Below are positions 26,796 through 47,126 of a DNA stretch of 64,000 bases, in pieces. Position numbers and translations under genes: made by a program. The stretch lies in contig JAIUOJ010000002.1 of NCBI GenBank assembly GCA_020161335.1, positions 52,411 through 116,410 on the forward strand, written 5' to 3'. This DNA comes from Pseudomonadota bacterium. Lineage in GTDB: Bacteria > Pseudomonadota > Gammaproteobacteria > Xanthomonadales > Xanthomonadaceae. The notes below the pieces were generated by a model. It saw only the letters and a list, made by a program, of their open reading frames with translations. It searched no databases and had not been told where the DNA came from. Within the stretch, counting starts at the first letter, position 1. Every line of letters starts with the position of its first letter.

Positions 26796-29700
26796 ATGAA
26801 ACACACGCACGGGGCGCCCAGGCGGCGCCTGCTGACGTCTGCACTGATGCTTGCTTTGGCGCCGCCGCTCGCGGCGCAGACCGTTCCGGATGCGCAGGGC
26901 GCTGCGCCCGCCGCGCAGGCACAGGACGATGCCGAGACGCTCGACACCGTCGTCGTCACCGGCATCCGCGCCAGCCTGCAGTCGTCGATGAACCTCAAGC
27001 GCGACTCGCAGGGCGTCGTCGACGGTATCGTGGCCGAGGACATCGGCAAGTTCCCGGATACCAACCTCGCTGAATCACTGCAGCGCATCAGCGGCGTGTC
27101 GATCGACCGCCAGCAGGGCGAGGGCTCCAAGGTCACGGTCCGCGGCGTCGGCCCGGACTTCAACCTTGTGCTGCTGAATGGACGGCAGATGCCGACCTCG
27201 GGCAACGCTTTCGGCGCCGGGGTGTCCAACTCGCGCGCGTTTGATTTCGCCAACCTGGCGTCGGAGGCGGTCTCGGCGGTCGAGGTCTACAAGACGGGCC
27301 GGGCCGAGAATCCGACCGGCGGCATCGGCGCGACGATCAACATCCGCACGACCAAACCGCTCGAGACCGGTCCGCTGGCAAGCGTCGGCATGAAGGCCGT
27401 GCATGACACCTCGAACGGCAACCTGCCCAAGTCGCTGCAGGGCGACGACGTGACCGGCGAATGGTCGGGCATCTACAGTGATACGTTCGCCGATGGCCGC
27501 TTCGGCATCGCCTTGACCGGCAGCTACCAGGCGCGCGACTTCGGCTACAGCCAGGTCGCGGTCGGCAACGGCTGGCGCGGGCCCTTCCGTGGCGACGAGA
27601 ACAACTGGGGCACGATCCCGCAGCCGGGTGCGCCCGGGTCGGAGAACATCACCAACCGGCCCGGCCCGGACGACATCTACAACGTCCCGCAGAACCTCAA
27701 CTACAACGTCAACGGCCTGCGCCGGCAGCGCACCAACGGCCAGCTCACGCTGCAATGGGCGCCGACCGACAACATCACCACCACGCTCGACTACACCTAC
27801 TCCGAGAACAAGATCCAGCACCAGCGCAACGAGCTGTCGGTGTGGTTCAACTTCGGGCCCTCGGTGAGTTCGTGGACCGATGGCCCGGTGGCCGCGCCCA
27901 TCATCTACTCAGAGCTGATCCCCGACGCGAACAGCGACCTGTCGATGGGCGGCGCGAAGATCGCCAACGTCAACGAGAACAAGTCGCTGGGCTTCAACGT
28001 CGAGTGGGAAGTGAACGACCGTCTTGACCTGTCGTTCGATTATCACAACTCGTCGGCCGAAACCCGCCCGGATAGTCCCTACGGATCGGCCGGCGTGCTC
28101 GGCGTGGCCGCCTTCGTGCGCGGCACCACGACGGTCGACTTCGGCGGCAAGTTCCCGGTGCTCAACGTGGAGCTGCCCGCGGGCGTTTCACAGGTGAGTC
28201 CCAGCCAGGCACTCGTCACCGGCTCGGTCTTCCAGAACGCCTATACGCGATCGGAGATCGAGCAGGCGCAGATCAACGGGCGCTTCGAGTTCGGCGACTA
28301 CTCCGGCCTCGATTTCGGCGTGGCGGCGACGGAAGTCAACAACCGCACCGCCTATGGCTTCACGCAGCGCGACACCTGGGGTGGCGTCGGCACACCGGAC
28401 GACTATGCCGACGACATCTGGTTCGCGGACAACATGGGCCGGTATTTCGACCAGTTCTCCGGGGCCAGCAGTCCCTCTTTCACCGACGCCTTCCTGCTGT
28501 TCGACTTCGAACGCCTGCGCGATCGTGCAGCCCAGGTCACCGGCCGGGAAGACTGGTATCGCGCGCCCGACGAATTCAGCCGCGACCTGCGCACGACCGA
28601 GAAGTCGCGCAGCGCCTACCTGCAATGGAGCACCAGCTGGGACCTGCATTTCCCGGTGAAGGCCGCGGTCGGTGTTCGCTACGAGGAGACCGAGGTCACG
28701 TCCTCGGCGCTGGTGCCGATCGCCAACGAGATCTCGTGGGGTTCGGCCAACGAGCTCAACGTGGTGTTCGGTGAACCCGGCTTCACCACGCTGGAAGGCA
28801 AGTACGACTACTGGCTGCCCAACCTGGACCTGAGCGTCGAGTTCACCGATCGCATGATCCTGCGTGGCAGCTACAGCCGCACCATCGGACGCCCGGGCTG
28901 GGCGGACATCCAGGGCGGGCAGACGCTCGACCAGATCGTCCGCGTCGACGGAGGCACGGGTGCCCAGGGCAATCCTGCGCTGGAGCCATTGCTGTCGGAC
29001 AACTTCGACCTGTCGTTCGAGTGGTACTACGGCGAGTCGAGTTACGTGTCGGCGGGCTACTTCCGCAAGAACATCGACAACTACATCGGCACGACCCAGG
29101 TCGTGGACACGCCGTTCAACCTGCACACGCCGGTCGGTGGGGCCTACTGGAACGCGGCGACCGCCAATGGCTGCGCCACCGCCGACGTGGTGTGCATCCG
29201 CAACTACATCTTCCAGAACTTCAACGGCCAGCCCGGCGTGACGTCCACCGGCACCGATGTGAACGGCAACTACACCGGCACGATCGTCGGCCAGCCGAAC
29301 GATCCGGTCGCGGACTTCCGCATCAATGTGCCGTCCAACACCGGGTCGTCGACGCTGGATGGCTGGGAATTCAACGTTCAGCACGTCTTTGGCGAGAGTG
29401 GCTTTGGCCTGTCGGCCAACTACACGATCGTCGACAGCCCGGATCTTACGTACGACAACGCCAGCTTCGGCCAGCAGTTCGCGCTGATCGGGTTGAGCGA
29501 CTCGGCCAACCTCGTGGCGTTCTACGACAAGGGACCGTGGCAGATCCGTGCCGCCTACAACTGGCGCGACCAGTTCCTGTCCGGCGTGTTCGACGGCTCG
29601 GGTCCGAATCCGAACTACGTCGAGGAGTACGGCCAGTTCGACCTGAGCATCGGCTACCAGGTGACCGACCGCCTGTCGCTGCAGTTCGAGGGCATCAACC

Positions 29701-29804
29701 TCACCGACGAGACCAACCGCGTCCATGGGCGGCACGTCAACGAGGTGCTGTACCTGACCCAGACCGGGCCACGCTACATGTTCGGCATGCGCTACAAGTT
29801 CTGA
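26796..29804 (+). CDS. TonB-dependent receptor A (module A)
   Basis: The 1002-residue outer-membrane receptor has a signal peptide (cleavage near LAAQ, about residue 28), a TonB-box-like LDTVVVTGIRASLQSSMN segment, the plug (GIVAEDIGKFPDTNLAESLQ, VRGVGPDFN) and a barrel ending in Phe (MFGMRYKF). This is the subgroup usually followed by tryptophan-halogenase-like genes in Caulobacter and Xanthomonas relatives. A strong site, TTGGAGAGG, precedes the ATG. It is controlled by the operator at 26691, and a hairpin follows the gene before the accessory enzymes. The substrate is unknown; a glycan is inferred. Confidence 0.93.
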   Translation: MKHTHGAPRRRLLTSALMLALAPPLAAQTVPDAQGAAPAAQAQDDAETLDTVVVTGIRASLQSSMNLKRDSQGVVDGIVAEDIGKFPDTNLAESLQRISGVSIDRQQGEGSKVTVRGVGPDFNLVLLNGRQMPTSGNAFGAGVSNSRAFDFANLASEAVSAVEVYKTGRAENPTGGIGATINIRTTKPLETGPLASVGMKAVHDTSNGNLPKSLQGDDVTGEWSGIYSDTFADGRFGIALTGSYQARDFGYSQVAVGNGWRGPFRGDENNWGTIPQPGAPGSENITNRPGPDDIYNVPQNLNYNVNGLRRQRTNGQLTLQWAPTDNITTTLDYTYSENKIQHQRNELSVWFNFGPSVSSWTDGPVAAPIIYSELIPDANSDLSMGGAKIANVNENKSLGFNVEWEVNDRLDLSFDYHNSSAETRPDSPYGSAGVLGVAAFVRGTTTVDFGGKFPVLNVELPAGVSQVSPSQALVTGSVFQNAYTRSEIEQAQINGRFEFGDYSGLDFGVAATEVNNRTAYGFTQRDTWGGVGTPDDYADDIWFADNMGRYFDQFSGASSPSFTDAFLLFDFERLRDRAAQVTGREDWYRAPDEFSRDLRTTEKSRSAYLQWSTSWDLHFPVKAAVGVRYEETEVTSSALVPIANEISWGSANELNVVFGEPGFTTLEGKYDYWLPNLDLSVEFTDRMILRGSYSRTIGRPGWADIQGGQTLDQIVRVDGGTGAQGNPALEPLLSDNFDLSFEWYYGESSYVSAGYFRKNIDNYIGTTQVVDTPFNLHTPVGGAYWNAATANGCATADVVCIRNYIFQNFNGQPGVTSTGTDVNGNYTGTIVGQPNDPVADFRINVPSNTGSSTLDGWEFNVQHVFGESGFGLSANYTIVDSPDLTYDNASFGQQFALIGLSDSANLVAFYDKGPWQIRAAYNWRDQFLSGVFDGSGPNPNYVEEYGQFDLSIGYQVTDRLSLQFEGINLTDETNRVHGRHVNEVLYLTQTGPRYMFGMRYKF

Positions 29805-29825
29805 GCCCCAGCGCCAGGTCTTGGC

Positions 29826-29849
29826 GGGCCGCCGGGATACCGGCGGCCC
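29826..29849 (+). terminator. Hairpin between receptor A and its accessory genes
   Basis: GGGCCGCCGG (29826-29835), a GATA loop and CCGGCGGCCC (29840-29849) form a perfect 10-bp stem, followed by GTTCGTT. The weak T content suggests partial termination or protection of the receptor mRNA 3' end. Confidence 0.65.
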
Positions 29850-29897
29850 GTTCGTTGGGGCATCCTGTCGCCCCTTGGGAACGTGGAGGGCAGGTGC

Positions 29898-31451
29898 GTG
29901 CCAGGTGGGATCCAGGACATCGTCATCCTTGGCGGCGGCACCGCCGGCTGGCTGACCGCGGCGGTGTTGGCGGCCGACCACGAGGCCGCGGCGCCTGGCG
30001 GTGTGAGGATCACCCTGGTCGAATCGCCGGACGTGCGCACGGTGGGCGTCGGCGAAGGCACCTGGCCGACGATGCGCGATACCTTGCGCCGGACCGGCGT
30101 GAGCGAAACCGATTTCCTGCGCGAGTGCGACGCCGCGTTCAAGCAGGGGTCCAAGTTCGTGCGTTGGCGCGACGGCCGTGACGAAGACAGCTACTACCAT
30201 CCCTTCGTTCTGCCGCAAGGGTTCCTCGATGCCAACCTCGTCGCAGGCTGGCTCGCGCACCAAGACGTCCCGTTCGGCAAGCTGGTGAGCTTCCAGCCGC
30301 ACCTGTGCGATGCAGGCAAGGCGCCCAAGCAGTTTTCGACGCCGGAGTGGGCGGCGGTGGCCAACTACGCCTACCACCTCGACGCCGGCAAGCTCGGCGA
30401 GTTCATGCGCCGGCATTGCGTGGGCACGCTCGGCGTGCGGCACGTGCCCGATCATGTGGTCGGCATCGAAAGCCACGACAACGGCGACATCGCGGCGCTG
30501 CGCACCCGCGAGCAGGGCGCCATCGCCGGCGACCTGTTCATCGACTGCAGCGGCACGCGTGCGCTCCTGCTCGGACAGCACTACGGCATCGGGCAGGTGC
30601 CGCTGGCGCACGTGCTGTTCAACGACCGTGCGATCGCGGCACAGGTGCCTTATGCCGATCCGTCTGCGGAGATCGCCTGCCAGACGATCTCCACCGCCCA
30701 CGGCAACGGCTGGATCTGGGACATCGGCCTGCAGTCGCGGCGCGGGGTTGGCGTGGTCTACTCGAGCGCGCACACAAGCGATGAGGCGGCTGCCGACGAA
30801 CTGCATCGCCACATCCTCGCCACCGGCGGGCGCGAACAGGACATCGGTGCGCTCCCGAAGATCGCCATCCAACCCGGCTACAGGAAGACGTTCTGGCATC
30901 GCAACTGCGTTGCGGTCGGGTTGTCGAGCGGCTTCATGGAACCGCTCGAAGCATCTTCCCTGGTTCTGGTGGAGCTGGCGGCGGGCATGATCAGCGACCA
31001 GCTGCCGGCCACGCGCGAGGCGATGGACATCGTCGCAACGCGCTTCAACGAGGCATTCTTGTACCGTTTCGGGCGCGTGGTGGACTTCCTGAAGCTGCAC
31101 TACGTCCTCAGCCGTCGCGCGGATACCGACTACTGGCGCGACAACCATCGTGCGGAGTCGATCCCTGAACGGCTGCAGGAACAGCTGTCGTTGTGGCGGC
31201 ACCAGCCGCCATCGCGCTACGACCTGCCGCGTGTCGAGGAAGTGTTCCCCTCCGCGAGCTACCAGTACATCCTGTACGGCATGGGCTTCCGGCCGGAGCC
31301 GAGACCCACCGCGCGGCACGCGGATGACGTACGCCGCGCCGAAGGTCATTTCCAGGAGGCGGCCGACCTCGCGCGCAGGATGCTGGCGGCGTTGCCGGGG
31401 CATCGGGAAATGCTCGAGCATGTTCGCACGCGCGGCATGCCGCGCATCTAG
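29898..31451 (+). CDS. Tryptophan-halogenase-like flavoprotein 1 (module A)
   Basis: The 517-residue flavoprotein has the FAD motif GGGTAGW (12-18) and the position of the catalytic Lys (Lys82 in FKQGSKF) and Glu (Glu351 in FMEPLEAS), as in PrnA Lys79 and Glu346. The second halogenase signature reads GWIWDIG (271-277) instead of WxWxIP, and Ser after the Glu is replaced by Ala. It has no signal peptide, so it is cytoplasmic. GTG at 29898 follows GGAGGG by 7 nt; an upstream GTG at 29883 is less likely. The true substrate of receptor-linked halogenases is unknown, so halogenation of free tryptophan should not be assumed. Confidence 0.85.
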   Translation: MPGGIQDIVILGGGTAGWLTAAVLAADHEAAAPGGVRITLVESPDVRTVGVGEGTWPTMRDTLRRTGVSETDFLRECDAAFKQGSKFVRWRDGRDEDSYYHPFVLPQGFLDANLVAGWLAHQDVPFGKLVSFQPHLCDAGKAPKQFSTPEWAAVANYAYHLDAGKLGEFMRRHCVGTLGVRHVPDHVVGIESHDNGDIAALRTREQGAIAGDLFIDCSGTRALLLGQHYGIGQVPLAHVLFNDRAIAAQVPYADPSAEIACQTISTAHGNGWIWDIGLQSRRGVGVVYSSAHTSDEAAADELHRHILATGGREQDIGALPKIAIQPGYRKTFWHRNCVAVGLSSGFMEPLEASSLVLVELAAGMISDQLPATREAMDIVATRFNEAFLYRFGRVVDFLKLHYVLSRRADTDYWRDNHRAESIPERLQEQLSLWRHQPPSRYDLPRVEEVFPSASYQYILYGMGFRPEPRPTARHADDVRRAEGHFQEAADLARRMLAALPGHREMLEHVRTRGMPRI

Positions 31452-31480
31452 CAACACGCGGACCACCCACAGGAAACCAG

Positions 31481-32188
31481 ATGACGCGCCACGTCCAGCT
31501 CAACAACATCGACCATCGGGACCTGCGCATCGACACGGCGCGCGGCACGGCGCTCGGCGACGGTGTCTCGTTCGCGCCGGTGGTGCCCGCGGAGTTCCGT
31601 AGCGTGCAGGCCTGCTACCCCATCGTGTTCCGCAAGGCCGCGGATGGCGGGTTCCAGCCGGTCGCGCTGTTCGGCTTCGAGGAGGGGATGAACCTGTTCC
31701 TCGACGACGACCAATGGGATGCGCCTTATCTGCCGTTGGCGATCGAGCGGCAGCCGTTCCTGATCGGACGCGGCGGAGACGCGCTCACCGTCCACATCGA
31801 CCTCGACCATCCGCGCGTGCGTACCGACGTGGGCGAGGCCCTGTTCCGCGAGCACGGTGGCACCACTGATTTCCTCGAGCGCATGACCTCGCTGCTGCTG
31901 TCGCTCCATGAAGGGCTGGAACGCGTGCCGGCGCTGGTCGATGTATTGCTGCGTCACGAATTGCTGGAATCGTTCGTGCTCGACGTGCGCCTCGATGACG
32001 GCAGCGAATGCCGGTTCGCCGGGTTCTACACGATTGCCGAGGAACGCCTGCGCGCACTTGATGGCACGGCGCTGGTGGACCTGCATCGTGGCGGCCACCT
32101 CGAAGCCGCCTACATGGCCATGGCCTCGCTGTCGCGCTTCCGCGACCTGGTCGACCGCTTGAGCCGCCGCCGTGCTGCCGGTCGATAG
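31481..32188 (+). CDS. SapC-like protein (module A)
   Basis: The 235-residue protein matches the SapC family layout: an N-terminal NIDHRDLRI segment, PVVPAEFRSVQACYPIVF, ALFGFEEGMNLFLD and a final LDGTALVDLHRGGHLEAAYMAMASL block. The name comes from a Campylobacter S-layer locus, but in this group the gene accompanies TonB-dependent receptors and its function is not known. No signal peptide or membrane helix is present. The ATG has AGGAAA upstream. Its end overlaps the cupin gene by 17 nt, so the proteins are probably made together. Confidence 0.85.
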   Translation: MTRHVQLNNIDHRDLRIDTARGTALGDGVSFAPVVPAEFRSVQACYPIVFRKAADGGFQPVALFGFEEGMNLFLDDDQWDAPYLPLAIERQPFLIGRGGDALTVHIDLDHPRVRTDVGEALFREHGGTTDFLERMTSLLLSLHEGLERVPALVDVLLRHELLESFVLDVRLDDGSECRFAGFYTIAEERLRALDGTALVDLHRGGHLEAAYMAMASLSRFRDLVDRLSRRRAAGR

Positions 32189-33191
32189 GCCGATCCGCGA
32201 GATCGCGGGCCTCGATCCGCGCGCGCTTCCGGCCGACCTGCTGCGCGCGCAGGAACCGGTGGTCATGCGCGGTGTCGTCTCTGACTGGCCGATGACACGT
32301 GCCGCGCGCGCTTCCGACGCCGAGGCAACCGCCTACCTGCAACGCTTCGTGCGTCGTGGCGCGCCGCCGGTGGTCGCCACCGTCGGGCCACCGGAGATCG
32401 GAGGCCGCTTCTTCTACGACGACAGCGTGCGAGGCTTCAACTTCCGCCAGGAGCAGGTGCCGCTGGGCGTGGCGCTGGACACATTGCTCAAGTACACCCG
32501 CGACCCGGCGCCTCCGGCGATTTATCTGGCCTCGACCACGATCGACACCTGGCTGCCCGGCTTCCGTGCCGAGAACGACATGGCGCTGCCTGATCCGGAT
32601 CCGTTGGCCAGCATCTGGATCGGCAACCGCACGCGCATCGCCGCGCACCAGGATGTGCCCGACAACCTGGCCTGCGTGGTGGCGGGCCGGCGGCGGGTGA
32701 CGCTCTTTCCGCCGCAGCAACTGCCGAACCTCTACATCGGCCCGCTCGACTACACACCGGCCGGGCAGGCGATCAGCCTGGTCGATTTCGCGGCACCCGA
32801 CTTCCAGCGCTTTCCGCGCTTCGAGGAGGCGCTGCGCCACGCGCAGGCCGCGGTGCTCGATCCTGGCGATGCGGTGTTCATTCCCAGCATGTGGTGGCAC
32901 CACATGGAGGGGCTGGAGCCGTTCAACGTACTGGTCAACTATTGGTGGCGGCAGACGCCGGCGTGGATGGACACGCCGATGAACGCGCTGATGCTCGCGA
33001 TCATGACCGTGCGCGACTTGCCCCAGCCGCAGCGCGCGGTCTGGGAGGATGTGTTCCGTCACTACGTGTTCGAGGCCGGCGACGACACCGCCGCGCATAT
33101 CCCGGCAGATGCGCGTCGCGCGCTTGGCCCGCTCGACGAGGCGCGCGCGCGCGAATTGCGTGCGCGCCTGCTGCAAAGGCTCAACCGATGA
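32172..33191 (+). CDS. JmjC/cupin-8 family protein (module A)
   Basis: The 339-residue protein has the cupin-8/JmjC fold of Fe(II)/2-oxoglutarate oxygenases: an HxD pair (His159, Asp161 in AHQDVPD), a distal His (243 or 244 in SMWWHHMEG) and the LFPPQQLPNLY segment. It could hydroxylate a protein or small molecule in the cytoplasm; the substrate is unknown. The start is GTG, inside the end of the SapC-like gene. A homologue with the same layout sits at 43721 in module B. It ends 10 nt before the second halogenase gene. Confidence 0.88.
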   Translation: MLPVDRPIREIAGLDPRALPADLLRAQEPVVMRGVVSDWPMTRAARASDAEATAYLQRFVRRGAPPVVATVGPPEIGGRFFYDDSVRGFNFRQEQVPLGVALDTLLKYTRDPAPPAIYLASTTIDTWLPGFRAENDMALPDPDPLASIWIGNRTRIAAHQDVPDNLACVVAGRRRVTLFPPQQLPNLYIGPLDYTPAGQAISLVDFAAPDFQRFPRFEEALRHAQAAVLDPGDAVFIPSMWWHHMEGLEPFNVLVNYWWRQTPAWMDTPMNALMLAIMTVRDLPQPQRAVWEDVFRHYVFEAGDDTAAHIPADARRALGPLDEARARELRARLLQRLNR

Positions 33192-33201
33192 GGACGGCCC
33201 C

Positions 33202-34710
33202 TTGACGAACGATGCAGGCGCACAGCGCCAGATCCCGATCCGGCGCGTTGTCATTGCCGGCGGCGGCACTGCCGGCTGGATGGCCGCGGCGGCCCTGTCG
33301 AAGATGCTCGGCAAGGTGCTCGACATCACCTTGGTGGAGTCGGAAGAGATCGGCACCATCGGCGTCGGCGAGGCCACGATCCCAACCCTGGTGACGTTCC
33401 ACCGGCTGCTTGAGATCGGCGAACAGGAGTTCATGGCCGCCACCCAGGGCACGATCAAGCTCGGGATCTCGTTCGAGAACTGGCTCGACGTCGGGCATCG
33501 CTACATCCACTCCTTCGGCACGTCGGGCAAGGACCACTGGTCGGCCGGGTTCCAGCACTTCTGGCTTCGCGGGCGTGAACTCGGCATTGCCAGTGGCTAC
33601 GAAGACTATTGCGTCGAGCTGCGTGCCAGCCTGCAGGACCGGTTCGCGCACCTGCCGCGAGGCGGTATCAACTATGCCTACCACATGGATGCGGCGCTGT
33701 ACGCGCGCTTCCTGCGCGATTTCAGCGAGGCGCGTGGCATGCGGCGCGTGGAGGGCAAGATCGTCGAGGTGCAGACCGACGAACTTTCTGGGGACATCAC
33801 CGCGCTCGCGCTTGCCGACGGTTCGCGGATCGAGGGCGACTTCTTCATCGACTGCACCGGGTTCCGTGCACTCCTGATCGGCAAGGCGCTCAACGTGGGA
33901 TACGAGGACTGGTCGCACTGGTTGCTTAACGACAGCGCGCTGGCGACGCAGACGACCGCCGTTCGCGACGCGGTGCCATACACCCGCGCCATCGCCGGGA
34001 CGGCGGGATGGCAGTGGCGCATTCCGCTGCAGCACCGTGTCGGCAATGGCATCGTCTACGCCAGCCGCTACATCGCCGACGACGAAGCCCGGCACGAGTT
34101 CCTGTCGAGCCTGGAGGGCGAGGTGATCAGGGATCCGTTGCCGATCCGCTTCCGGCCGGGCCAGCGGCTCAAGTGCTGGCACAAGAACTGCGTCGCGCTG
34201 GGGCTGGCCGGAAGCTTCATCGAGCCGCTGGAATCGACCACGATCCACCTGATCCAGCGCGGCATCGTGCATCTGCTGCAGATGTTCCCGCACGTGGTCA
34301 CGCAGCCGGCGATCGACCAGTACAACACGCAGTTGGGTTCCGAGCTGCAGCACGTGCGCGACTTCGTCGTGCTGCACTATGCGTTGACCAACCGCCGGGA
34401 CACGCCCTACTGGCGCATGGTGTCCAGCATGGATTTGCCGCCGAGCCTGGAACACCGCATCGAACTGTTCCGGGAGACTGGCAGTGTGTTCCGGGTGCCG
34501 AACGAGTTGTTCGCGGAGAATTCGTGGATCCAAGTGATGATGGGCCAGGGCGTGCTGCCAAGTGGCCACCATCCGACCGCTGAGGTGATGGGTGAGTCCG
34601 AACTGAAGCGTTTCCTCGACGAGATCCGCGCGAACGTCATCGCCACGGCCGATCGGCTGCCGTCGCACATGGACTACATGCGCAGCTACGCGCCGGCCGC
34701 GAAGCCCTGA
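33202..34710 (+). CDS. Tryptophan-halogenase-like flavoprotein 2 (module A)
   Basis: This 502-residue flavoprotein retains all the halogenase landmarks: GGGTAGW (20-26), Lys86 in IKLGISFENW, the complete WxWxIP motif GWQWRIP (269-275) and Glu344-Ser in FIEPLEST. It is therefore the best candidate in the window for a chemically competent halogenase. The start is TTG at 33202, eight bases after a GAGGACGG ribosome-binding site. It shares the operon with halogenase-like protein 1, whose motifs are degraded, so the two may form a catalytic/non-catalytic pair. Confidence 0.88.
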   Translation: MTNDAGAQRQIPIRRVVIAGGGTAGWMAAAALSKMLGKVLDITLVESEEIGTIGVGEATIPTLVTFHRLLEIGEQEFMAATQGTIKLGISFENWLDVGHRYIHSFGTSGKDHWSAGFQHFWLRGRELGIASGYEDYCVELRASLQDRFAHLPRGGINYAYHMDAALYARFLRDFSEARGMRRVEGKIVEVQTDELSGDITALALADGSRIEGDFFIDCTGFRALLIGKALNVGYEDWSHWLLNDSALATQTTAVRDAVPYTRAIAGTAGWQWRIPLQHRVGNGIVYASRYIADDEARHEFLSSLEGEVIRDPLPIRFRPGQRLKCWHKNCVALGLAGSFIEPLESTTIHLIQRGIVHLLQMFPHVVTQPAIDQYNTQLGSELQHVRDFVVLHYALTNRRDTPYWRMVSSMDLPPSLEHRIELFRETGSVFRVPNELFAENSWIQVMMGQGVLPSGHHPTAEVMGESELKRFLDEIRANVIATADRLPSHMDYMRSYAPAAKP

Positions 34711-34726
34711 TCGTCGCGGCGCGCGG

Positions 34727-36045: not shown

Positions 36046-37512
36046 TCAGTGCCCGGCCTGCGCGACCAGCTTGTCCAGGTCGATGCCCTGCTGGCGCAGG
36101 ACGTGCGGTGCGCGCGCGGCATAGAAGGCCAGGTACACGAAGCAGGCGACGCCGACCACGAAGCTGTAGTGGATGCCCACCTTGTCGGCCAGCGCGCCCT
36201 GCGCCCAGCTCACCAGGCCGCCGCCCATGATCATCATGATCAGCAGGCTGCTGCCCTGGTTGGTGTTGCGGCCCAGCCCGGTGATCGCAAGCGCGAAGAT
36301 GCACGGCCACATGGTGCTGCAGAACAGGCCCACGCTGATGAAGGCGACCACGCTCGTCATGCCCGTGGTGAACATGCCCACCAGCAGCGCGGCGATGCCG
36401 CACAGCGAGAAGATCAGCAGCATGCGCGCCGGGTTGCCGCGGCTGGCGAAGGTGGCGACGATCATCAGCACGATCACGAACGCGTACAGGAAGAAGTGCG
36501 AGATTTCGTGGCGGGCGATGGCGTTCACCGCGAGGAACACGCCGAACGCGAGGTAGGGCAGGAGCACCGTCAGCATGCGCTTGGTGTTCATGCGCACCTC
36601 GAACGCGCCCGCGGCGCCGGCCCAGCGGCCGATCATCAGGCTGGCCCAGTACAGCGACACGAAGGGCGCGATCAGCGCGGTCTCGATGCCCAGGCCGCCC
36701 TGGTCAGCCGGCAGTTCGAGGTAGGCCGGCAGGTTGGCGATGGTGGACACCTCCACGCCGACGTAGACGAAGATCGCAACCATGCCCAGCACCAGCTGCG
36801 GGTACGCGAACGCGGACTTCTTGTGCACCAGCTTGCTCGCGTCCTCTGCTTCCTCGGCCGCCAGCCCGTCGAGGTCGATCTGGTTCGGCACGGAGGAGAA
36901 CTTGAGGAAGATCGCGACCAGCACGAACGCCGCGCCGAGCACCAGGTACGGCGTCTTCACCGATTCGATGCTCGCCTCGGTGCCGCCGGCGCTGACGCTG
37001 CCGAAGATGGCGAAGCTCACCAGCAGCGGGCCGATGGTGGTGCCGAAGTTGTTGATGCCGCCGGCCATGGTCAGGCGTTGCGCGCCGGTGGCCGGGTCGC
37101 CCATCACGATCGCCAGCGGGTTGGCGGCGATCTGTTGCAGCGAGAAGCCCAGGCCGACGATGAACAGGCCCGACAGCATCAGCCCGAACGAACCCGCGTT
37201 CGCGGCGGGGTAGAACAGCAGCGAGCCCATCGCCGAGATCAGCAGGCCCAGGCAGATGCCGTTCTTGTAGCCGATCCGGTTGAGCACGTCGGCGCCGATG
37301 GCCTTCGAGGTCAGGAAGTAGATGATCGAGCCGACCGTGTAGGCCACGTAGAACGCCACCGCCACGTACTGGCTCTGCGCCTGGCTGAGGTGGAAGGCGT
37401 TCTTGAAGACCGGGATCAGGATGTCGTTGCTGGCGGCGACGAAGCCCCAGAAGAAGAACACGGTGATCAGGACGAGGAACTGTGACCAACGGGTCTGCTG
37501 GTGGGTCGTCAT
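36046..37512 (-). CDS. FucP-like MFS sugar permease
   Basis: The 488-residue protein has about 12 TM helices and the FucP/GluP fold signatures FFFWGFVAASNDILIPVFK near the N-terminus and ANPLAIVMGDP, matching the glucose/galactose:H+ symporter subfamily. It should import the monosaccharide released by the GH30 and GH3 enzymes. The ATG at 37512 gives the normal start; the longer frame upstream has no TM content. A perfect LacI-type palindrome lies about 150 bp upstream, joining this gene to the local regulon. Confidence 0.92.
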   Translation of the reverse strand: MTTHQQTRWSQFLVLITVFFFWGFVAASNDILIPVFKNAFHLSQAQSQYVAVAFYVAYTVGSIIYFLTSKAIGADVLNRIGYKNGICLGLLISAMGSLLFYPAANAGSFGLMLSGLFIVGLGFSLQQIAANPLAIVMGDPATGAQRLTMAGGINNFGTTIGPLLVSFAIFGSVSAGGTEASIESVKTPYLVLGAAFVLVAIFLKFSSVPNQIDLDGLAAEEAEDASKLVHKKSAFAYPQLVLGMVAIFVYVGVEVSTIANLPAYLELPADQGGLGIETALIAPFVSLYWASLMIGRWAGAAGAFEVRMNTKRMLTVLLPYLAFGVFLAVNAIARHEISHFFLYAFVIVLMIVATFASRGNPARMLLIFSLCGIAALLVGMFTTGMTSVVAFISVGLFCSTMWPCIFALAITGLGRNTNQGSSLLIMMIMGGGLVSWAQGALADKVGIHYSFVVGVACFVYLAFYAARAPHVLRQQGIDLDKLVAQAGH

Positions 37513-37661
37513 GGGGCCTGCCGTCGAGAGGTGGGAATGAAGAAGGAGCGGCGACCGCCGGGAAGCCCGGCCGTCGTCCGCCCCGCGGAACAGCACCACG
37601 CGTCGCGCCTCTCCTTCGCGCCGCACCGGCCTGCCGCCCCGGGGAGCTTGTACAGGGCGCC

Positions 37662-37675
37662 TGACAACGTTGTCA
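37662..37675. promoter_or_regulatory. Perfect LacI-type operator before the sugar permease
   Basis: TGACAACGTTGTCA is a perfect 14-bp palindrome. On the minus strand TTGACA (37676-37671) overlaps it as a -35 element, and GTACAA, 17 bp further, is a possible -10. The 350-bp gap between the permease and yqhA otherwise holds only leader sequence; the palindrome could also affect yqhA. Confidence 0.8.
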
Positions 37676-37862
37676 AATGTGCCGCGCATCGACCACGAGG
37701 CCTGGCCCAAGCCCTTGATCTGGCGCGGATTTGTGTGCATCGCAGCATGCCCGGCGCGCAGCCTGCCGGCGGTCCTCCGTTGGCGCCGCCGTCACCCCGC
37801 TTGGCAGGCCGGGGCGCGGTCGCTAACCTCCGCGCTCCCTCCGCCGGACCCCGCCGATCCCG

Positions 37863-38686: not shown

Positions 38687-38700
38687 TGATAGCGCTATCA
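38687..38700. promoter_or_regulatory. Class 2 palindromic operator, distal
   Basis: TGATAGCGCTATCA is a perfect 14-bp palindrome. Its TGATAGCG half-site differs from the TGACARCG class, so another LacI-type protein probably binds here. It lies 895 bp before receptor B and 167 bp after yqhA. Confidence 0.65.
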
Positions 38701-39216: not shown

Positions 39217-39230
39217 TGTTAGCGCTAACA
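39217..39230. promoter_or_regulatory. Class 2 palindromic operator, proximal
   Basis: TGTTAGCGCTAACA is a perfect 14-bp palindrome of the same class as the site 530 bp upstream. It lies 352 bp before receptor B. The pair could support DNA looping. Confidence 0.7.
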
Positions 39231-39457: not shown

Positions 39458-39484
39458 TGGGTGTAGGCGGGAGTCGAACTCCGC
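39458..39484 (-). pseudogene. tRNA/tmRNA 3'-end-like remnant
   Basis: Read on the minus strand, GCGGAGTTCGACTCCCGCC is a canonical T-arm (GCGGG, TTCGACT, CCCGC) with one extra A, followed by TACACCCA, close to a tmRNA/tRNA acceptor ending in CCA. No D-arm, anticodon arm or 5' acceptor strand is present upstream, so it can only be a fragment or a chance match. Confidence 0.35.
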
Positions 39485-39581
39485 ACTGACCAGGGCCCCC
39501 GGGGGTTGCCGTTGCAGGCATCCCTGCCGGTATCGAGACGCGTTTGTCGATCGTCCAAATTCCAGTGCCGAGGACAAGTCC

Positions 39582-42500: not shown

Positions 42501-42776
42501 TACGGCTGGACCGCCCGCCTGGCCTGGAACTGGCGCGACGAGTACCTGATCGCCGCGAACCAGAACGGCTCGAGCACCAACCCGTACTACGTCCAGGAAT
42601 ACGACCAGCTGGACTTCAGCGTCACCTACCAGCTCAGCGAGAACTGGTCGGCCGGCTTCGAGGCGATCAACCTGACCGGCGAAGACATCCGCTGGCGCGC
42701 CCGCACCGAGAAGCAGGTGGTGAAGCTGGTTGACCAGAGCCCGCGCTACATGGTCGGGATCCGCTACACCTTCTGA
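39582..42776 (+). CDS. TonB-dependent receptor B (module B)
   Basis: The 1064-residue outer-membrane receptor has a signal peptide (cleavage near AFAQ, about residue 29), TonB-box-like LDTVVVTGLRNSLENSMN, the plug (AISAEDIGKFPDTNLAESLQ, ARGFGPDYN) and a barrel ending in Phe (MVGIRYTF). It is clearly related to receptor A in the plug region but has longer extracellular loops, including a Cys-containing insert near residues 440-460. The ATG at 39582 follows CGAGGACA; the frame is open upstream to 39111 without coding character. Two class 2 palindromes lie upstream and a strong terminator follows. Confidence 0.93.
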   Translation: MNHQLKRFRSKAMFTFVGGVLIINPAFAQDPQTPSPAPTEQAASPARPDAATLDTVVVTGLRNSLENSMNIKRDTAGVVDAISAEDIGKFPDTNLAESLQRITGISIERRNGEGAQITARGFGPDYNMVTLNGRQIPGADAFSNGDSVTGGVGAGTRGFNFAQLASEAISGITVYKTGRADAPSGGMGATVDILTSRPLSLPAGLTMNAGLKLGSDESQTIGSSITPEISSILSYASDDKRWGASLSTSFQKRKGGDVQATENAWNIRTWTGDDNAFADDVNIVNAPAVGSLYSFPNDLRYAFSSFERQRINAQGVLQFAPTDSLTLTLDYTHSSNEISEDRGEQTQWLNQGGGVSDIEFDTSGAVAVPVYIREVTGGKDFGYEQQRNEQKYKLDSIGFNANWQVTDRFNLNFDAHRSETKSLPNDPITGASATFFSMAGTNACAAGAGPYCGGNWAQEYWFNNSMPIMARTWYPTLGDADAGSNGTVNPDFPAQQVGSQIQRIWYSRQDSEVKQASIDGTLDFDNGRFQFGVDSAKVSMKRLASNDNQAVLGNWGVSNVGAEPGLQDLIRPISITGLFSDYNMSGAAPGAWWGNASQLAEWASNFYGTSSTYNPNLASNNLIEEKTNAVYVQYEWNGELGSMGANLVVGARYEQTELSSTSQIPIPQSINWNGDNDFARTDSADIQPFTEEAKYNYLLPNLDFSLGLTSNLKGRLSASKTIARAPYGNLYAGPTANTPSGSVLLGESFRASGTAQTPTLLPLESRNLDLALEWYFAPASYLSLTFFDKRVKNFIGNTQGQENLYGLRDPTSGPDAQFVLNWLTSGACQAQVAALPNVSPNACGNNNIALFTAMALYRNAAQTGGLAAYNGTDAQWTAMENFVRQPGNELIGEADDPLYMFNVSRPINQQEARIHGWELGGQYFFGDSGFGVQANYTIVKGDVGINDAAPPGVNQFALTGLSDTANAVLMYEKYGWTARLAWNWRDEYLIAANQNGSSTNPYYVQEYDQLDFSVTYQLSENWSAGFEAINLTGEDIRWRARTEKQVVKLVDQSPRYMVGIRYTF

Positions 42777-42812
42777 CCCGAACCTCTCCGACGGTTGGAT
42801 GGTGTCAACGGT

Positions 42813-42843
42813 GGGGCCGCTGCGCGCGCAGCGGCCCCTTTTT
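42813..42843 (+). terminator. Strong intrinsic terminator after receptor B
   Basis: GGGGCCGCTGC (42813-42823), a GCGC loop and GCAGCGGCCCC (42828-42838) make a perfect 11-bp stem followed by TTTTT. It separates receptor B from the accessory genes that follow in the same direction. Confidence 0.92.
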
Positions 42844-42954
42844 CTCCAGGCGCGGCCCGCGCCGTCCCTCGATTTCCCCGCGGCGCGGGCGCATCATCGC
42901 GTGGTGGTCGGCGATACGGAATCCAGTGCGCTGGCGTAGTCAGGTGGAGACGAG

Positions 42955-43710
42955 ATGGCGCAGTACGAACTGCTCGACAACGTGAAGCACAAGGACCTGC
43001 GGGTCGACCTGCGCTTCGGCGCGGGCCTCGGCGACGGCAGCGGGCTGGTGCCGGCGTGGCCCACCGAGTTCGCGGAGCTGCAGCGCGAGTACCCCATCTT
43101 CCTGCGCGAGGACGGCGAGGGCGGCGGCTACCAGGCGGCGGCGCTGCTGGGGTTCGACCGCGACGAGAACCTGTTCGTGCGCGACGACCGCTGGAGCGCC
43201 GGCTACCTGCCGGGCGCGCTGGCGCGCGGGCCGTTCCTGATCGGCTTCCAGGAGCAGGCTGGCGCGGCCCGACTGGAGCGCACGCCGGTCATCCACGTCG
43301 ACATGGCGCATCCGCGCGTGGCGCGCGATGGCGAAGGCGTGGCGGTGTTCCTGCCCCAGGGCGGGCAGAGTCCGTACCTGCAGCACGTGACCACGGTGTT
43401 GACCGGGATCAACGACGGTGTCGAGGCAGGCCACGCGATGTACGCCGCGCTCGACGCGCTGGGACTGGTGCAGCCGGTGGACATCGAGCTCAAGTTCGAC
43501 GAGCACCACGGTGCGAAGCTGACCGGACTGCATGGCATCGACCGCGACCGCCTGGCGGGGCTCGACGCGGCGCAGCTGCATGGCCTGCATCGCGCCGGCT
43601 GGCTGGAAGGCGTCTACCTGATGCTGTCCTCGCTGCACAACCTGCGCCGCCTGATCGCCGAGAAACAGCGCCGCCTGCGCGAACAGGCCGCGGCCGAAGC
43701 GGCGGCCTGA
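42955..43710 (+). CDS. SapC-like protein (module B)
   Basis: The 251-residue homologue of the module A SapC-like protein keeps the same blocks: NVKHKDLRV, PAWPTEFAELQREYPIFL, ALLGFDRDENLFVRDD and LDAAQLHGLHRAGWLEGVYLMLSSL. No signal peptide is visible. The ATG has AGGTGGAG upstream. It is the first gene after the receptor B terminator, so the four-gene accessory operon probably has its own promoter in 42844-42954 or depends on read-through. Function unknown. Confidence 0.85.
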   Translation: MAQYELLDNVKHKDLRVDLRFGAGLGDGSGLVPAWPTEFAELQREYPIFLREDGEGGGYQAAALLGFDRDENLFVRDDRWSAGYLPGALARGPFLIGFQEQAGAARLERTPVIHVDMAHPRVARDGEGVAVFLPQGGQSPYLQHVTTVLTGINDGVEAGHAMYAALDALGLVQPVDIELKFDEHHGAKLTGLHGIDRDRLAGLDAAQLHGLHRAGWLEGVYLMLSSLHNLRRLIAEKQRRLREQAAAEAAA

Positions 43711-43720
43711 GGACAACGGC

Positions 43721-44743
43721 ATGATCGAGGCCGCCGTCCGCACGCGCGTCATCGAAGGCGCACAGCCCGATGCGCTGCCGCTGCAGGCGCTGCTCGCGGG
43801 TGGCGAGCCGGTGGTGCTGCGCGGCCTGTGCCGCGGCTGGCGCCTGGTGCAGGCCGGCGAGGACTCGCCGCAGGCGGCGATCGCGCACCTGCTCGAGCAC
43901 TACAACGGTCGACCGCTGCCGTACTCGTGGGGGCCGCCCGCGACCGCGGGCCGACCGTTCTACGCGGAGGGTTTCACGAGCCTCAACACCGAAGCCCGGC
44001 GCGGCCGGCTGGACGACGTGCTGGCGGACATCGTCGCCCACCTCGACGATGCGCGCCCGCCGACGCATTACGTGGCATCGGTGCCGGTCGACGGCGTGCT
44101 GCCGGGACTGCGCGCGGGCAACGACCTCGACTTCGCCGCGCATGGTGTCGACGCGTCGCCCGCGATCTGGATCGGCAACCGCACCACGGCCTCGTGCCAC
44201 TACGACGCGCCGGACAACATTGCCTGCTGCGTGGTGGGGCGCCGGCGCTTCACCCTGTTCCCGCCGGAGCAGGTGCACAACCTGTACCCGGGGCCGCTGG
44301 ATCCCACGCCCGGCGGCCAGGCGGTGAGCATCGTCGACTTCGATGCGCCGGACCTCGAGCGGTTCCCGCGCTTCCGCGATGCGCTGCCGCATGCGCGCGG
44401 CGTGGTGCTCGAGCCCGGCGACGCGATCTTCATCCCGAGCATGTGGTGGCACCACGTCCGGGGGCTGTCGCCGTTCAACGTCCTGGTCAACTACTGGTGG
44501 AGCAGCATGCCGGCCTACATCCCGACGCCGATGCATGCGCTGCACCATGCGCTCTGGGCCATCCGAGATCGCCCCGAGCGCGAGAAACAGGCGTGGCGCG
44601 AGGTCTTCGATTACTACGTGTTCGGCCCCGCACAACGCGCTGGCGAACACCTGCCGGAGCCCGCGCGCAAGACGCTGGCGCCGATCGACGAGACCCTGGC
44701 GCGCCAGCTCCGGGCCTGGCTGATCGCCAGGCTCAATCGCTGA
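43721..44743 (+). CDS. JmjC/cupin-8 family protein (module B)
   Basis: The 340-residue protein has the same layout as the module A protein: HxD pair His160/Asp162 in CHYDAPD, distal His244/245 in SMWWHHVRG, and LFPPEQVHNLY. The Fe(II)/2-oxoglutarate oxygenase fold is supported by these residues; the substrate is unknown. It starts 10 nt after the SapC-like stop and ends with RLNR like its module A homologue. No export signal is visible. Confidence 0.88.
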   Translation: MIEAAVRTRVIEGAQPDALPLQALLAGGEPVVLRGLCRGWRLVQAGEDSPQAAIAHLLEHYNGRPLPYSWGPPATAGRPFYAEGFTSLNTEARRGRLDDVLADIVAHLDDARPPTHYVASVPVDGVLPGLRAGNDLDFAAHGVDASPAIWIGNRTTASCHYDAPDNIACCVVGRRRFTLFPPEQVHNLYPGPLDPTPGGQAVSIVDFDAPDLERFPRFRDALPHARGVVLEPGDAIFIPSMWWHHVRGLSPFNVLVNYWWSSMPAYIPTPMHALHHALWAIRDRPEREKQAWREVFDYYVFGPAQRAGEHLPEPARKTLAPIDETLARQLRAWLIARLNR

Positions 44744-44779
44744 TCGCGGCGCCTCGGGACACGGGCAAGGGAGACGGGA

Positions 44780-46417
44780 ATGGACGGACAGGCGGGCAGG
44801 ATCCGGAAGGTGGTCATCGCCGGCGGCGGCACCGCGGGCTGGGTCGCGGCCTGCGCGCTGACCCACCAGTTCCGCGACCTGCTGGAGGTCACGCTGGTCG
44901 AGTCGGAGCAGATCGGCACGGTGGGCGTCGGCGAATCGACGATCCCGACCATCCGCACGTTCCACCAGCTGCTGCAGATCGACGAGCGCGAGTTCATGAG
45001 TTCGGTCGCCGCCAGCTTCAAGCTCTCGATCTCGTTCGAGGACTGGTTGCGTCCGGGCCAGCGCTACTTCCATCCTTTCGGGCTGACCGGGCTGGGCACG
45101 TGGGCCTGCGAGTTCCATCATTTCTGGCTCGAAAGCCGGCGCCGCGGCATCCGCTCCGAGCTGGGCGACTTCTGCCTGGAGACGGTGGCCTCGCGCGTCG
45201 ACCGCTTCGTGCTGGCGGGCCAGGGACGCGGCGATGGCCAGTGGTCGACGCGCTGGGACCCGCCGGCCACGACGCCGGCACGGCCCGAGGTGAACTACGC
45301 CTACCACTTCGACGCCGGCCTCTACGCCGCGTACATGCGCGAGCGCGCCGAACGCCAGGGCCTGGTGCGCATCGAGGGCAAGATCCAGCAGGTGCGCCAG
45401 CATCCAGGGAGCGGCCATGTCGAGGCGCTGGTGCTCGACAACGGCACGGTGGTGGACGGCGACCTGTTCATCGATTGCACAGGCGGCCGCGCGGTGCTGA
45501 GCGAGCAGGCGCTGGGCACCGGCTACGAGGACTGGAACCACTGGCTGCCAAGCAACCGCGCGGTGGCCTTGCAGACCGAGGCCGACGGGCCGGCCGTGCC
45601 GTACACGCGCGCGATCGCGCACGCGGCCGGCTGGCACTGGAAGATCGCGCTGCAGCACCGGATCGGCTGCGGCATCGTGTTCTCCGACGCGCACATGTCC
45701 GACGACGAGGCGACCGCCAGGCTGTTGTCGGCCAATCCGGCGAAACCGCTGCGCGATCCGTGGATCATCCCGTTCCGCACCGGCCGGCGGCGCAAGGCCT
45801 GGCACAAGAACGTGATCGCGCTGGGGCTGGCCAGCGGTTTCATCGAGCCGCTGGAATCCACCAGCATCCACCTCACCCTCAGCGGCGTGGCGAGGCTGCT
45901 GAAGCTGTTCCCGGCCGACGGCATCGACGCATCGCTGGTGCAGCGCTACAACGACATCAGCCGTGCCGAGATGGAGCACGTGCGCGACTTCATCATCCTG
46001 CACTACCACCTCAACCAGCGCGACGAGCCGATGTGGCAGCAGGTGCGGCACATGCGCCTGCCGCCGGACCTGGCGCACCGGATCGAGATGTTCCGCGACC
46101 GCGCGCATGCGCTGCAGGGCGAGGATGAGCTGTTCCGGCTCGATTCGTGGACCCACTGCATGCTCGGCCAGGGCGTGGTGCCGAGGGCGCACCATCCGCT
46201 CACCCGCGCGCTGTCGGACGCCGACCTCGCGCGCCTGTTCGACGGCATCCGCCAGCCGATCGATCGCGCCGTGGCGGCGATGCCGACGCACCAGCAGTTC
46301 CTCGATCGCTACTGCAAGGCTTCGCCATCGGCGTGGGAGCAGATGTACGAGCGGGCACGCGCGCATGCGCGGGTGACCGGGCGGATCGCCGGCACGGGCG
46401 GCGAACTGCAACGCTGA
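44780..46417 (+). CDS. Tryptophan-halogenase-like flavoprotein 3 (module B)
   Basis: The 545-residue flavoprotein has GGGTAGW (15-21), Lys81 in FKLSISFEDW, and Glu359-Ser in FIEPLEST. The second signature is GWHWKIA (284-290), with Ala replacing the Pro of WxWxIP. It is closest to halogenase-like protein 2 of module A. A GC-rich insertion near residues 145-170 and a longer C-terminal tail distinguish it. It starts 36 nt after the cupin gene with GGGAGACGGG upstream. It is cytoplasmic; the substrate is unknown. Confidence 0.88.
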   Translation: MDGQAGRIRKVVIAGGGTAGWVAACALTHQFRDLLEVTLVESEQIGTVGVGESTIPTIRTFHQLLQIDEREFMSSVAASFKLSISFEDWLRPGQRYFHPFGLTGLGTWACEFHHFWLESRRRGIRSELGDFCLETVASRVDRFVLAGQGRGDGQWSTRWDPPATTPARPEVNYAYHFDAGLYAAYMRERAERQGLVRIEGKIQQVRQHPGSGHVEALVLDNGTVVDGDLFIDCTGGRAVLSEQALGTGYEDWNHWLPSNRAVALQTEADGPAVPYTRAIAHAAGWHWKIALQHRIGCGIVFSDAHMSDDEATARLLSANPAKPLRDPWIIPFRTGRRRKAWHKNVIALGLASGFIEPLESTSIHLTLSGVARLLKLFPADGIDASLVQRYNDISRAEMEHVRDFIILHYHLNQRDEPMWQQVRHMRLPPDLAHRIEMFRDRAHALQGEDELFRLDSWTHCMLGQGVVPRAHHPLTRALSDADLARLFDGIRQPIDRAVAAMPTHQQFLDRYCKASPSAWEQMYERARAHARVTGRIAGTGGELQR

Positions 46418-46424
46418 GGCCGTC

Positions 46425-47126
46425 GTGCTGATCCAGCCTCATCCCGGCCTGCGATGGCAGGTGCGCCGCATCGGCAGCGAAGGCGCGCCGCTGCTGGTCG
46501 TCGACCAGGCCGTGGCCGATCCGGACCGGCTGGTGCGCAAGGCCGCCCGCGGCCACTTCACGTCGCAGGGCGCCCTGTTCCCGGGGCTGCGGATCCGTGC
46601 GCCGCTTTCGTATGAAGTCTTCCTGGAGCAGTTGGTCCGGCCGCTGCTGGACGCGCATTTCGGGCTGCCCGCGCGCGGCCGGCTGGCGTTTCCCGTGTGC
46701 CACTACTCGTTGGTCGCGCGCAGGCCCGAGGCACTGGAGTTCCTCCAGCGCATCCCGCACGTCGATTCCACCGCCGCGCACGGACTGGCCACGGTGCATT
46801 ACCTGTTCCGCGGCGACTGGGGCGGCACCGCGTTCTATCGCCATCGCGCCACCGGCTTCGAGTGCGTCGACGACGCGCGGCGCGACGCCTATTTCGCGCG
46901 GCTCAAGGACGAAAGCGAGGGCGACGACGCGCCGGCGCCGGGCTACATTCGTGGCGACACGCCGCTGTTCCAGCGCATCGACGCGGTCGCGGGCGTGTTC
47001 AACCGGCTGCTGGTCTATCGCCGCAACTCGTTGCATTCGGGCGACATCGACGACGCCCGCGTCCCGCCGCCGGACCCGCTGGCCGGGCGGCTGTCGATCA
47101 ACAGCTTCATCGACGTCCTGCCCTGA
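46425..47126 (+). CDS. DUF6445 family protein, probable Fe/2-oxoglutarate enzyme
   Basis: The 233-residue protein matches DUF6445 proteins seen beside receptor-linked halogenases. An HxD pair (His112, Asp114 in IPHVDSTAAHG), a distal His204 in NSLHSGDI and Arg222 in GRLSINSF are spaced as in prolyl-4-hydroxylase-like 2-oxoglutarate oxygenases; that reading is my inference. GTG at 46425 starts 7 nt after the halogenase stop, so it belongs to the module B operon. Module A has no counterpart and carries a second halogenase instead. Confidence 0.78.
   Translation: MLIQPHPGLRWQVRRIGSEGAPLLVVDQAVADPDRLVRKAARGHFTSQGALFPGLRIRAPLSYEVFLEQLVRPLLDAHFGLPARGRLAFPVCHYSLVARRPEALEFLQRIPHVDSTAAHGLATVHYLFRGDWGGTAFYRHRATGFECVDDARRDAYFARLKDESEGDDAPAPGYIRGDTPLFQRIDAVAGVFNRLLVYRRNSLHSGDIDDARVPPPDPLAGRLSINSFIDVLP

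Follow-up and report, generated by a model that had tools for sequence, protein, structure and literature searches.

Two probable sugar-receptor operons of a Xanthomonadaceae bacterium, each with a predicted cytoplasmic set of flavin halogenase, SapC-family and oxygenase-like proteins

The bromide-preferring flavin-dependent halogenases BrvH and Xcc4156 are reported to leave free tryptophan unhalogenated; their active sites are open, and a peptide has been suggested as the substrate (PMC7336383; PMC5945002). BrvH corresponds to entry 6frl of the Protein Data Bank (PDB), and the native substrates of BrvH and the Xanthomonas halogenases are stated to be unknown (PMC7336383). In vitro, BrvH slowly brominates free indole, with a preference for bromide, an activity that its authors judge too low for indole to be the natural substrate (PMC5945002), and relatives of the Xcc4156 type brominate indole as well (PMC7336383). 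Here we analyze a stretch of 64,000 nucleotides of a Xanthomonadaceae genome (contig JAIUOJ010000002.1, positions 52,411 to 116,410; hereafter the window), in which two gene sets, copy A and copy B, each combine a TonB-dependent receptor with a SapC-family protein, a cupin and at least one flavin halogenase. The two sets probably represent sugar-receptor operons under LacI-type control, each equipped with a cytoplasmic set of oxidative tailoring enzymes.

The preliminary description of this DNA listed ten genes in the two sets, and family scans recovered all of them with the same coordinates and order (Table 1). Copy A (26796-34710) consists of receptor, halogenase A1, SapC, cupin and halogenase A2, and copy B (39582-47126) of receptor, SapC, cupin, halogenase and DUF6445, as had been claimed. 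The family scores lie so far over the cut-offs that chance is excluded for the identity of these genes. The spacing is indeed tight or overlapping: the SapC and cupin genes of copy A overlap by 17 bp, and the gaps from the copy B SapC gene onward measure 10, 36, and 7 bp. Receptor A and halogenase A1 are separated by 78 bp, and receptor B and its SapC gene by 178 bp. The open reading frame (ORF) listed for halogenase A2, starting at 33049, shares 143 bp with the cupin gene and matches the family only from residue 66 onward; the true start is likely a TTG near 33202. A crude hydropathy check, made by inspection, agreed with the reported absence of export signals from the enzymes, as the eight enzyme and SapC proteins lack a basic-then-hydrophobic N-terminus and only the two receptors have one.

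Table 1. Positions of the module genes, neighboring genes and palindromes in the window (GH, glycoside hydrolase; MFS, major facilitator superfamily).
Feature	Position	Strand	Basis or remark
Copy A TonB-dependent receptor, TIGR01782	26796..29804	+	662 bits, cut-off 310
Copy A flavin halogenase A1, PDB 2pyx type	29883..31451	+	PF04820 384 bits, cut-off 21
Copy A SapC-family protein	31481..32188	+	PF07277 227 bits, cut-off 28.9
Copy A Cupin_8 (JmjC/FIH-like) protein	32172..33191	+	PF13621 234 bits, cut-off 27.4
Copy A flavin halogenase A2, halogenase B group	33202..34710, start uncertain	+	PF04820 612 bits, cut-off 21
Copy B TonB-dependent receptor, TIGR01782	39582..42776	+	745 bits, cut-off 310
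Copy B SapC-family protein	42955..43710	+	PF07277 206 bits, cut-off 28.9
Copy B Cupin_8 (JmjC/FIH-like) protein	43721..44743	+	PF13621 238 bits, cut-off 27.4
Copy B flavin halogenase, BrvH/Xcc4156 type	44780..46417	+	PF04820 600 bits, cut-off 21
Copy B DUF6445, Fe/2-oxoglutarate-oxygenase-like motif	46425..47126	+	PF20043 255 bits, cut-off 24
TonB-dependent receptor without linked halogenase	18116..20965	-	Pfam Plug and barrel; TIGR01782 600.7 bits
GH30 glycoside hydrolase	21019..22560	+	PF02055, PF17189
GH3-family glycoside hydrolase	22632..25200, upstream end approximate, frame open to 26810	-	PF00933, PF01915, PF18559
LacI-family regulator	25485..26498	+	PF00356, PF13377; start by inspection
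MFS transporter	36046..37740, start uncertain	-	PF07690
LacI-type palindrome TGACAGCGCTGCCA	20951..20964	+	Between receptor 18116 and GH30; window and genome pattern scan
LacI-type palindrome TGACAACGCTGTCA	25274..25287	-	Between GH3 and LacI; pattern scan
LacI-type palindrome TGACAACGCTGTCA	26691..26704	+	91 bp before receptor A; same site in counterpart L075
LacI-type palindrome TGACAACGTTGTCA	37662..37675	+	Near MFS start; pattern scan
Palindrome TGATAGCGCTATCA	38687..38700	+	Upstream of receptor B; perfect
Palindrome TGTTAGCGCTAACA	39217..39230	+	Upstream of receptor B; perfect

The receptor-linked set had been proposed to hold a flavin enzyme and one or two Fe/2-oxoglutarate-type oxygenases, and the corresponding catalytic and metal-binding motifs were found intact. 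Halogenases A1, A2, and B all have GGGTAG at the N-terminus, which fits the GxGxxG motif for flavin adenine dinucleotide, and all contain the catalytic lysine (in A1 the lysine of an FKQ motif). The WxWxIP motif reads WQWRIP in A2, WHWKIA in B and WIWDIG in A1. The best PDB matches of halogenase B were 9luq, 6y1w (which we take to be Xcc4156) and 6frl, with 504 and 423 bits to the BrvH/Xcc4156 entries and at most 287 bits to the next ones. Halogenase A1 best matched 2pyx, 9ltb, and 9lu2, and A2 is placed with halogenase B by their 50% identity. Seven of 81 aligned halogenases have no lysine in the catalytic column (given as locus and position: L097:13068, L101:9766, L105:8015, L108:9089, L128:8908, L041:8186, which is a short match, and L046:12524); these proteins, all but that of L046 encoded beside intact halogenases, are perhaps inactive partners.

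The HxD...H motif of the cupin is invariant in 24 of 24 sequences, and cupin B had its best PDB matches in FIH and JMJD5, with which it aligns along some 115 residues of the catalytic core (lowest E values near 1e-21 and 1e-16). FIH and JMJD5 both hydroxylate proteins. In DUF6445 the residues H103, D105, H195, and the distal R213 (numbering of the matched segment) are invariant in nine of nine sequences. This protein had no PDB sequence match at E 1, and a structure model built from 2 sequences reached a predicted local distance difference test (pLDDT) score of 35.

Co-occurrence of the families was surveyed in 150 genomes drawn from the phylum, with thresholds for full-length matches of at least 298 bits for the halogenase and at least 197 bits for Cupin_8. 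SapC was found in 60 genomes, full-length halogenase in 15, full-length Cupin_8 in eight and DUF6445 in six. The expected joint occurrence was borne out for the cupin and DUF6445, as all eight and all six of their genomes, respectively, contain a full-length halogenase, but for SapC in only 14 of 60; the genomes are related. Conversely, 14 of the 15 genomes with a full-length halogenase also have SapC, although relatedness of the genomes makes any probability attached to these counts only a guide. The possibility that the genes occur independently in most genomes therefore applies in part, namely to the SapC family, which is mostly independent (46 of 60 SapC genomes without full-length halogenase). 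Among control genomes, that of Caulobacter vibrioides gave matches to SapC, Trp_halogenase, Cupin_8, and TIGR01782 and none to DUF6445; Trp_halogenase also matched unrelated controls such as E. coli.

Gene links were counted with profiles built from the window proteins, in fetched loci covering every full-length halogenase place listed and part of the SapC places. The 59 halogenase genes form 40 clusters, 33 of which have a TIGR01782-type receptor within 5 kb. Of 16 cupin genes, 14 lie at most 5 kb from such a receptor and 13 at most 3 kb from a halogenase; of eight DUF6445 genes, five have a halogenase at most 3 kb away and four a receptor at most 5 kb away. Among the 55 SapC genes fetched, 13 have a halogenase no more than 3 kb away and 42 lie further from one. 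Beyond the window, the module occurs in both Gamma- and Alphaproteobacteria. Linked receptor, SapC, cupin and halogenase genes are present in the Xanthomonas-like group of the window and also in Marinimicrobium, Sphingomonas, Sphingobium (S. scionense, L119), and Asticcacaulis (A. taihuensis, L116). Out of 91 plasmid records with a halogenase match, ten of the 23 best rows were examined as well, none of them a lower-identity match from Streptomyces or Burkholderia. In all ten an annotated TonB-dependent receptor adjoins the halogenase, or only genes for SapC, cupin, DUF6445, 2-oxoglutarate (2OG) oxygenase or a further halogenase intervene. At L126:10448-11977, in a sucrose-type locus of Catenovulum, a protein with TPR and 2OG-FeII_Oxy_5 domains stands between receptor and halogenase, as if it replaced the cupin.

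In a tree of 68 SapC proteins, the 24 that are module-linked (a halogenase, cupin or receptor gene no more than 1.5 kb away) all fall on one side of a branch with a Shimodaira-Hasegawa-like approximate likelihood ratio (SH-aLRT) of 98, against 42 solo proteins; two rows were left unlabeled (L113 and L121). The tree program flagged long branches, including those of three linked proteins (L080, L084, and L088). The SapC gene of L121 lies directly after a glycosyltransferase-like ORF, identified by eye, in place of the receptor set (L121:4276-6041).

A tree was likewise built of 104 receptors of the TIGR01782 type. The halogenase label requires 10 changes on this tree, vs. 33.5 with shuffled labels, and the 22 halogenase-bearing receptors with a linked SapC all lie within one clade of 27. 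Four other halogenase-bearing receptors, and one receptor that has no halogenase, have a cupin but no SapC beside them. From this distribution of labels, the halogenase accompanies several receptor lineages and SapC one. A restriction of the gene set to one receptor subgroup, which the preliminary description wanted checked, holds for the receptors with linked SapC, but not throughout for the halogenase, as seven of its 40 clusters have no TIGR01782-type receptor within 5 kb.

Halogenase and receptor are matched in type. Between genomes, receptor identity and halogenase identity correlate with r 0.57 (28 pairs, nine genomes with several pairs), whereas swapping the halogenases within genomes gave a mean r of 0.12 and a maximum of 0.45, and none of 5000 swaps reached 0.57. 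The correlation therefore reflects more than shared genome ancestry and, as judged by these identities, halogenase type tracks receptor type and not genome. The nearest receptor and the nearest halogenase name the same locus in 20 of 46 pairs, so that the match is one of type and is not exact.

The two sets had been called duplicated, which is misleading, since A and B do not stem from a recent duplication. They share 37% identity in the receptor, 38% in SapC, 49% in the cupin and 50% in the halogenase (A2 compared with B). Copy A is 62-75% identical to locus L075 and copy B 62-76% to L074, both from one genome (G031) of the same family and another genus. L075 is the closest locus for all four copy A proteins, and L074 for those of copy B apart from the receptor, which is closer to L076 by one point. 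A recent tandem copy is ruled out by the low identity between A and B together with the closer counterparts in another genus. Because the proteins of each copy are nearer to these counterparts than to each other, A and B are, on sequence comparison, old paralogous modules inherited as units. In 18 complete modules the identities of the four module proteins correlate with r 0.65-0.79, and none of 2000 permutations gave values as high. The closest named SapC proteins to that of copy B come from metagenome-assembled genomes of Lysobacterales (57%) and Pseudoxanthomonas (55%).

The modules are embedded in a carbohydrate locus with a halogenase-free receptor, GH30, GH3, LacI and MFS genes. The palindrome TGACARCGCTGYCA occupies four places in it: the interval from the receptor at 18116 to GH30, that from GH3 to LacI, the region preceding receptor A, and the start of the MFS gene. 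Allowing up to two mismatches, the window contains 12 strand-matches to TGACARCGCTGYCA where 2.6 are expected; with at most one mismatch the 3.56 Mb genome contains 11 places, four of them within these 17 kb, and control patterns in the genome scan gave 1 and 1 matches against 7 and 11. These sites make it probable that copy A is co-regulated with the GH30, GH3, LacI, and MFS genes. Copy B has no TGACARCGCTGYCA nearby, and its counterpart L074 has a site similar to the palindromes of copy B. Since the palindromes upstream of A and B differ, the two copies are probably under different LacI-type regulators. More widely, a degenerate LacI-like palindrome (up to one mismatch, up to 540 bp before the receptor) precedes 15 of 47 halogenase-bearing receptors, 7 of 53 others and 1 of 520 shuffled sequences. 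A tRNA at the copy B promoter was looked for and none was found in the window.

The proteins of the solo SapC branch provide some indication of what this family works with. The structure model of SapC B is confident (pLDDT 90.3), and a fold search at E 0.001 against the PDB and a viral library gave no match. Three long SapC ORFs, considered as possible fusions, contain no second Pfam domain and may owe their length to open frame before or after the gene. In seven of 41 solo loci (L048, L053, L057, L059, L065, L073, and L081; a count without a background rate) SapC has, no more than three genes away, an ORF that is at least 1,900 residues long or contains RTX-like repeats; Pfam confirmed the repeats in L081, the one locus of these seven that was scanned. 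A smaller TonB receptor is the gene preceding SapC in L044 and also, by similarity cluster and length, in L049. OEP and HlyD, families that serve type I secretion and also efflux pumps, are the commonest neighbors of solo SapC, with five members each among the 121 of 223 neighboring ORFs scanned. Several of the loci with surface-protein neighbors come from one bacterial family. Taken together, these neighbors weakly suggest that SapC works with exported surface proteins. In L066 and L067, a solo SapC gene stands directly before a Mu-type phage portal gene (identified by Pfam in L066 and by a similar ORF in L067).

We tentatively propose that the enzymes act in the cytoplasm on the receptor, as the first candidate, or on another exported protein, with SapC as an adaptor. 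In its full form this reading, to which we assign a probability of roughly 0.35, is that of a dedicated modification system for the receptor or an exported surface protein, in which SapC-guided halogenation and 2OG-dependent hydroxylation occur in the cytoplasm and are switched on together with the sugar-uptake genes. Sensing of the sugar would lead to joint production of the receptor and the tailoring enzymes. SapC would bind the receptor (or other exported protein) before or during export and present it to the enzymes. The BrvH-type halogenase would then act on an aromatic side chain, by halogenation or hydroxylation, while hydroxylation of other side chains would fall to the FIH/JmjC-like cupin and DUF6445. 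The modification might then tune binding, stability or recognition of the receptor. We favor an exported protein as the substrate because the ligands are varied, the cupin resembles protein hydroxylases, the halogenase belongs to an open-site class, the enzymes are cytoplasmic and, weakly, because of the other company that SapC keeps. The receptor-specific matching of the halogenase, the single branch of linked SapC and the short gaps within the module also count for this reading, as does the fact that the halogenases stay with the receptor while the sugar genes change.

The alternative that survives best is that the enzymes act on the imported ligand itself, or on an aromatic compound entering with it (an aryl-decorated glycan or a glycoside), after passage through the MFS transporter into the cytoplasm. 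The preliminary description had named both ligand and exported protein as possible substrates. The probable co-regulation of copy A with degrading enzymes and a transporter is in line with a ligand, and so is the bromination of free indole by BrvH, even if its authors do not regard that activity as natural (PMC5945002). The neighbors of halogenase-bearing receptors argue otherwise. Recognized among them are GH13/GH97, GH3/GH16/GH30, GH43, GH29, GH95, and GH89, and scans of neighboring ORFs (132 of 138) also detected GH3, alpha-amylase, GH1, GH42, GH10, GH5, melibiase, and fucosidase domains; in L126, GH32 and amylosucrase stand beside an annotated receptor unmatched by the receptor profile used here. 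Given this variety, a single imported ligand is unlikely as the common substrate of the halogenase, and the substrates of GH13/GH97, GH43, GH29, and GH89/95 need no aromatic group. The SapC and cupin subset is narrower. Here GH3 is the commonest recognized neighbor (8 of 22 loci) and 11 of 22 loci gave no hit with the seeds used, so that the ligands may be alike and a common beta-glucan-like ligand is possible. Overall, we regard modification of the ligand as unlikely.

Several observations weigh against the modification of an exported protein, and of the receptor in particular. More than half of the compared receptors (53 of 104) have no halogenase, and the seven halogenase clusters without a nearby receptor have been mentioned. 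The matching of halogenase to receptor would be equally expected from plain inheritance of an operon or from a ligand-directed enzyme. No receptor residue follows the halogenase, the best of 99 residue states doing so in 3-4 of nine independent pairs; R134, D414, and N400 of receptor B, tried as halogenase markers on 47 receptors with and 53 without halogenase, fail in independent pairs. Enrichment of tryptophan in the receptor was likewise rejected (1.37% with halogenase vs. 1.43% without). In view of these last two results, modification of the receptor is something that we infer. As for SapC, module-branch proteins occur without a halogenase, cupin or receptor match in L113 (6.9 kb) and L121 (17 kb), the latter being a real exception since the stretch spans 6 kb before and 10 kb after its SapC gene, and 32 of the 41 solo loci have neither of the two counted kinds of surface-protein neighbor.

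The receptor-free clusters, the 42 SapC genes distant from a halogenase and the location of ten examined examples on plasmid records would also fit genes that travel as passengers with a mobile sugar-uptake cassette. Their products would then act elsewhere in the cell, on unrelated components, and share with the receptor nothing but regulation. This appears improbable, as the linked SapC proteins form one side of a branch, the cupin is so regularly close to a receptor, and the proteins of each copy point to one and the same counterpart locus, with the one-point exception of receptor B. Equally improbable is a small halogenated or hydroxylated metabolite made upon sugar induction, for example a bromoindole signal or defense compound, for while BrvH brominates indole with a preference for bromide (PMC5945002) and halogenase genes can multiply in one locus (four in L128), the conserved module has neither an additional biosynthetic enzyme nor an exporter nor an evident precursor peptide, its gaps are short, and matching of halogenase to receptor type would not be expected. 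In 18 modules the gaps between family matches measure 9-219 bp, with two exceptions of 279 and 365 bp. A precursor peptide, as for the MibH-like halogenase of a ribosomally synthesized and post-translationally modified peptide, has little room in gaps of 9-219 bp; short ORFs were not searched for.

Elsewhere in the window, the small RNA sX13 of Xanthomonadaceae was matched at 60564-60674 on the plus strand (80.5 bits); like the closest named SapC proteins, it marks the host as Xanthomonadaceae-like. The region 2900-13223 contains genes for an acyltransferase and an MMPL protein on the plus strand and, on the minus strand, for a weakly Trp_halogenase-like flavoprotein, a glycosyltransferase and a ketoacyl synthase, a group that we take to be an aryl-polyene-like cluster.

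Every part of the module belongs to a known family. In a literature search of titles and the starts of abstracts (most subscription papers lie outside its scope), none of the matches listed joins the halogenase with the receptor, SapC or DUF6445, and DUF6445 appears in no paper of the literature searched; among the matches listed, no description was found of the complete module, with one SapC branch and a halogenase specific to the receptor. The conserved partnership directs the search for the substrate of the BrvH and Xanthomonas halogenases to sugar-induced cells, with the co-encoded receptor as the first protein to look at. If our proposal is true, the BrvH/Xcc4156 class would gain its missing native substrate, and nutrient uptake would prove to be controlled in an unexpected further way, by halogenating or hydroxylating a receptor or another exported protein. 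Should the ligand be the substrate instead, glycan use would gain a new step.

Among described systems, the locus resembles the carbohydrate utilization loci with TonB-dependent receptors (CUT loci) of Xanthomonas and Caulobacter, in which receptor, inner-membrane carrier, degrading enzymes and regulator are united in one locus (PMC1790865). The genes for GH30, GH3, LacI, MFS, and receptor A, which stand together beside the same palindrome, have that make-up, and uptake and use of a carbohydrate through the receptor are predicted. The difference lies in the added tailoring set; the words halogenase, cupin, SapC, and oxygenase are absent from the main text of the CUT study (PMC1790865). Conversely, the words receptor, cupin, and SapC are absent from the main texts of three halogenase papers (PMC7336383, PMC5945002, and PMC8269204). 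Among solved structures BrvH and Xcc4156 are closest to halogenase B, which keeps the catalytic lysine; the last residue of the WxWxIP motif differs, being alanine in B and glycine in A1. The gene for BrvH has a second halogenase gene adjoining it (PMC5945002), just as copy A has two halogenases. The SapC proteins of the window give full-length matches to the family PF07277, within which the module-linked members differ as a separate branch. The module cupin resembles FIH and JMJD5 in the sequence of the catalytic core, has the HxD...H motif, and differs from them in being bacterial and encoded in an operon with a receptor.

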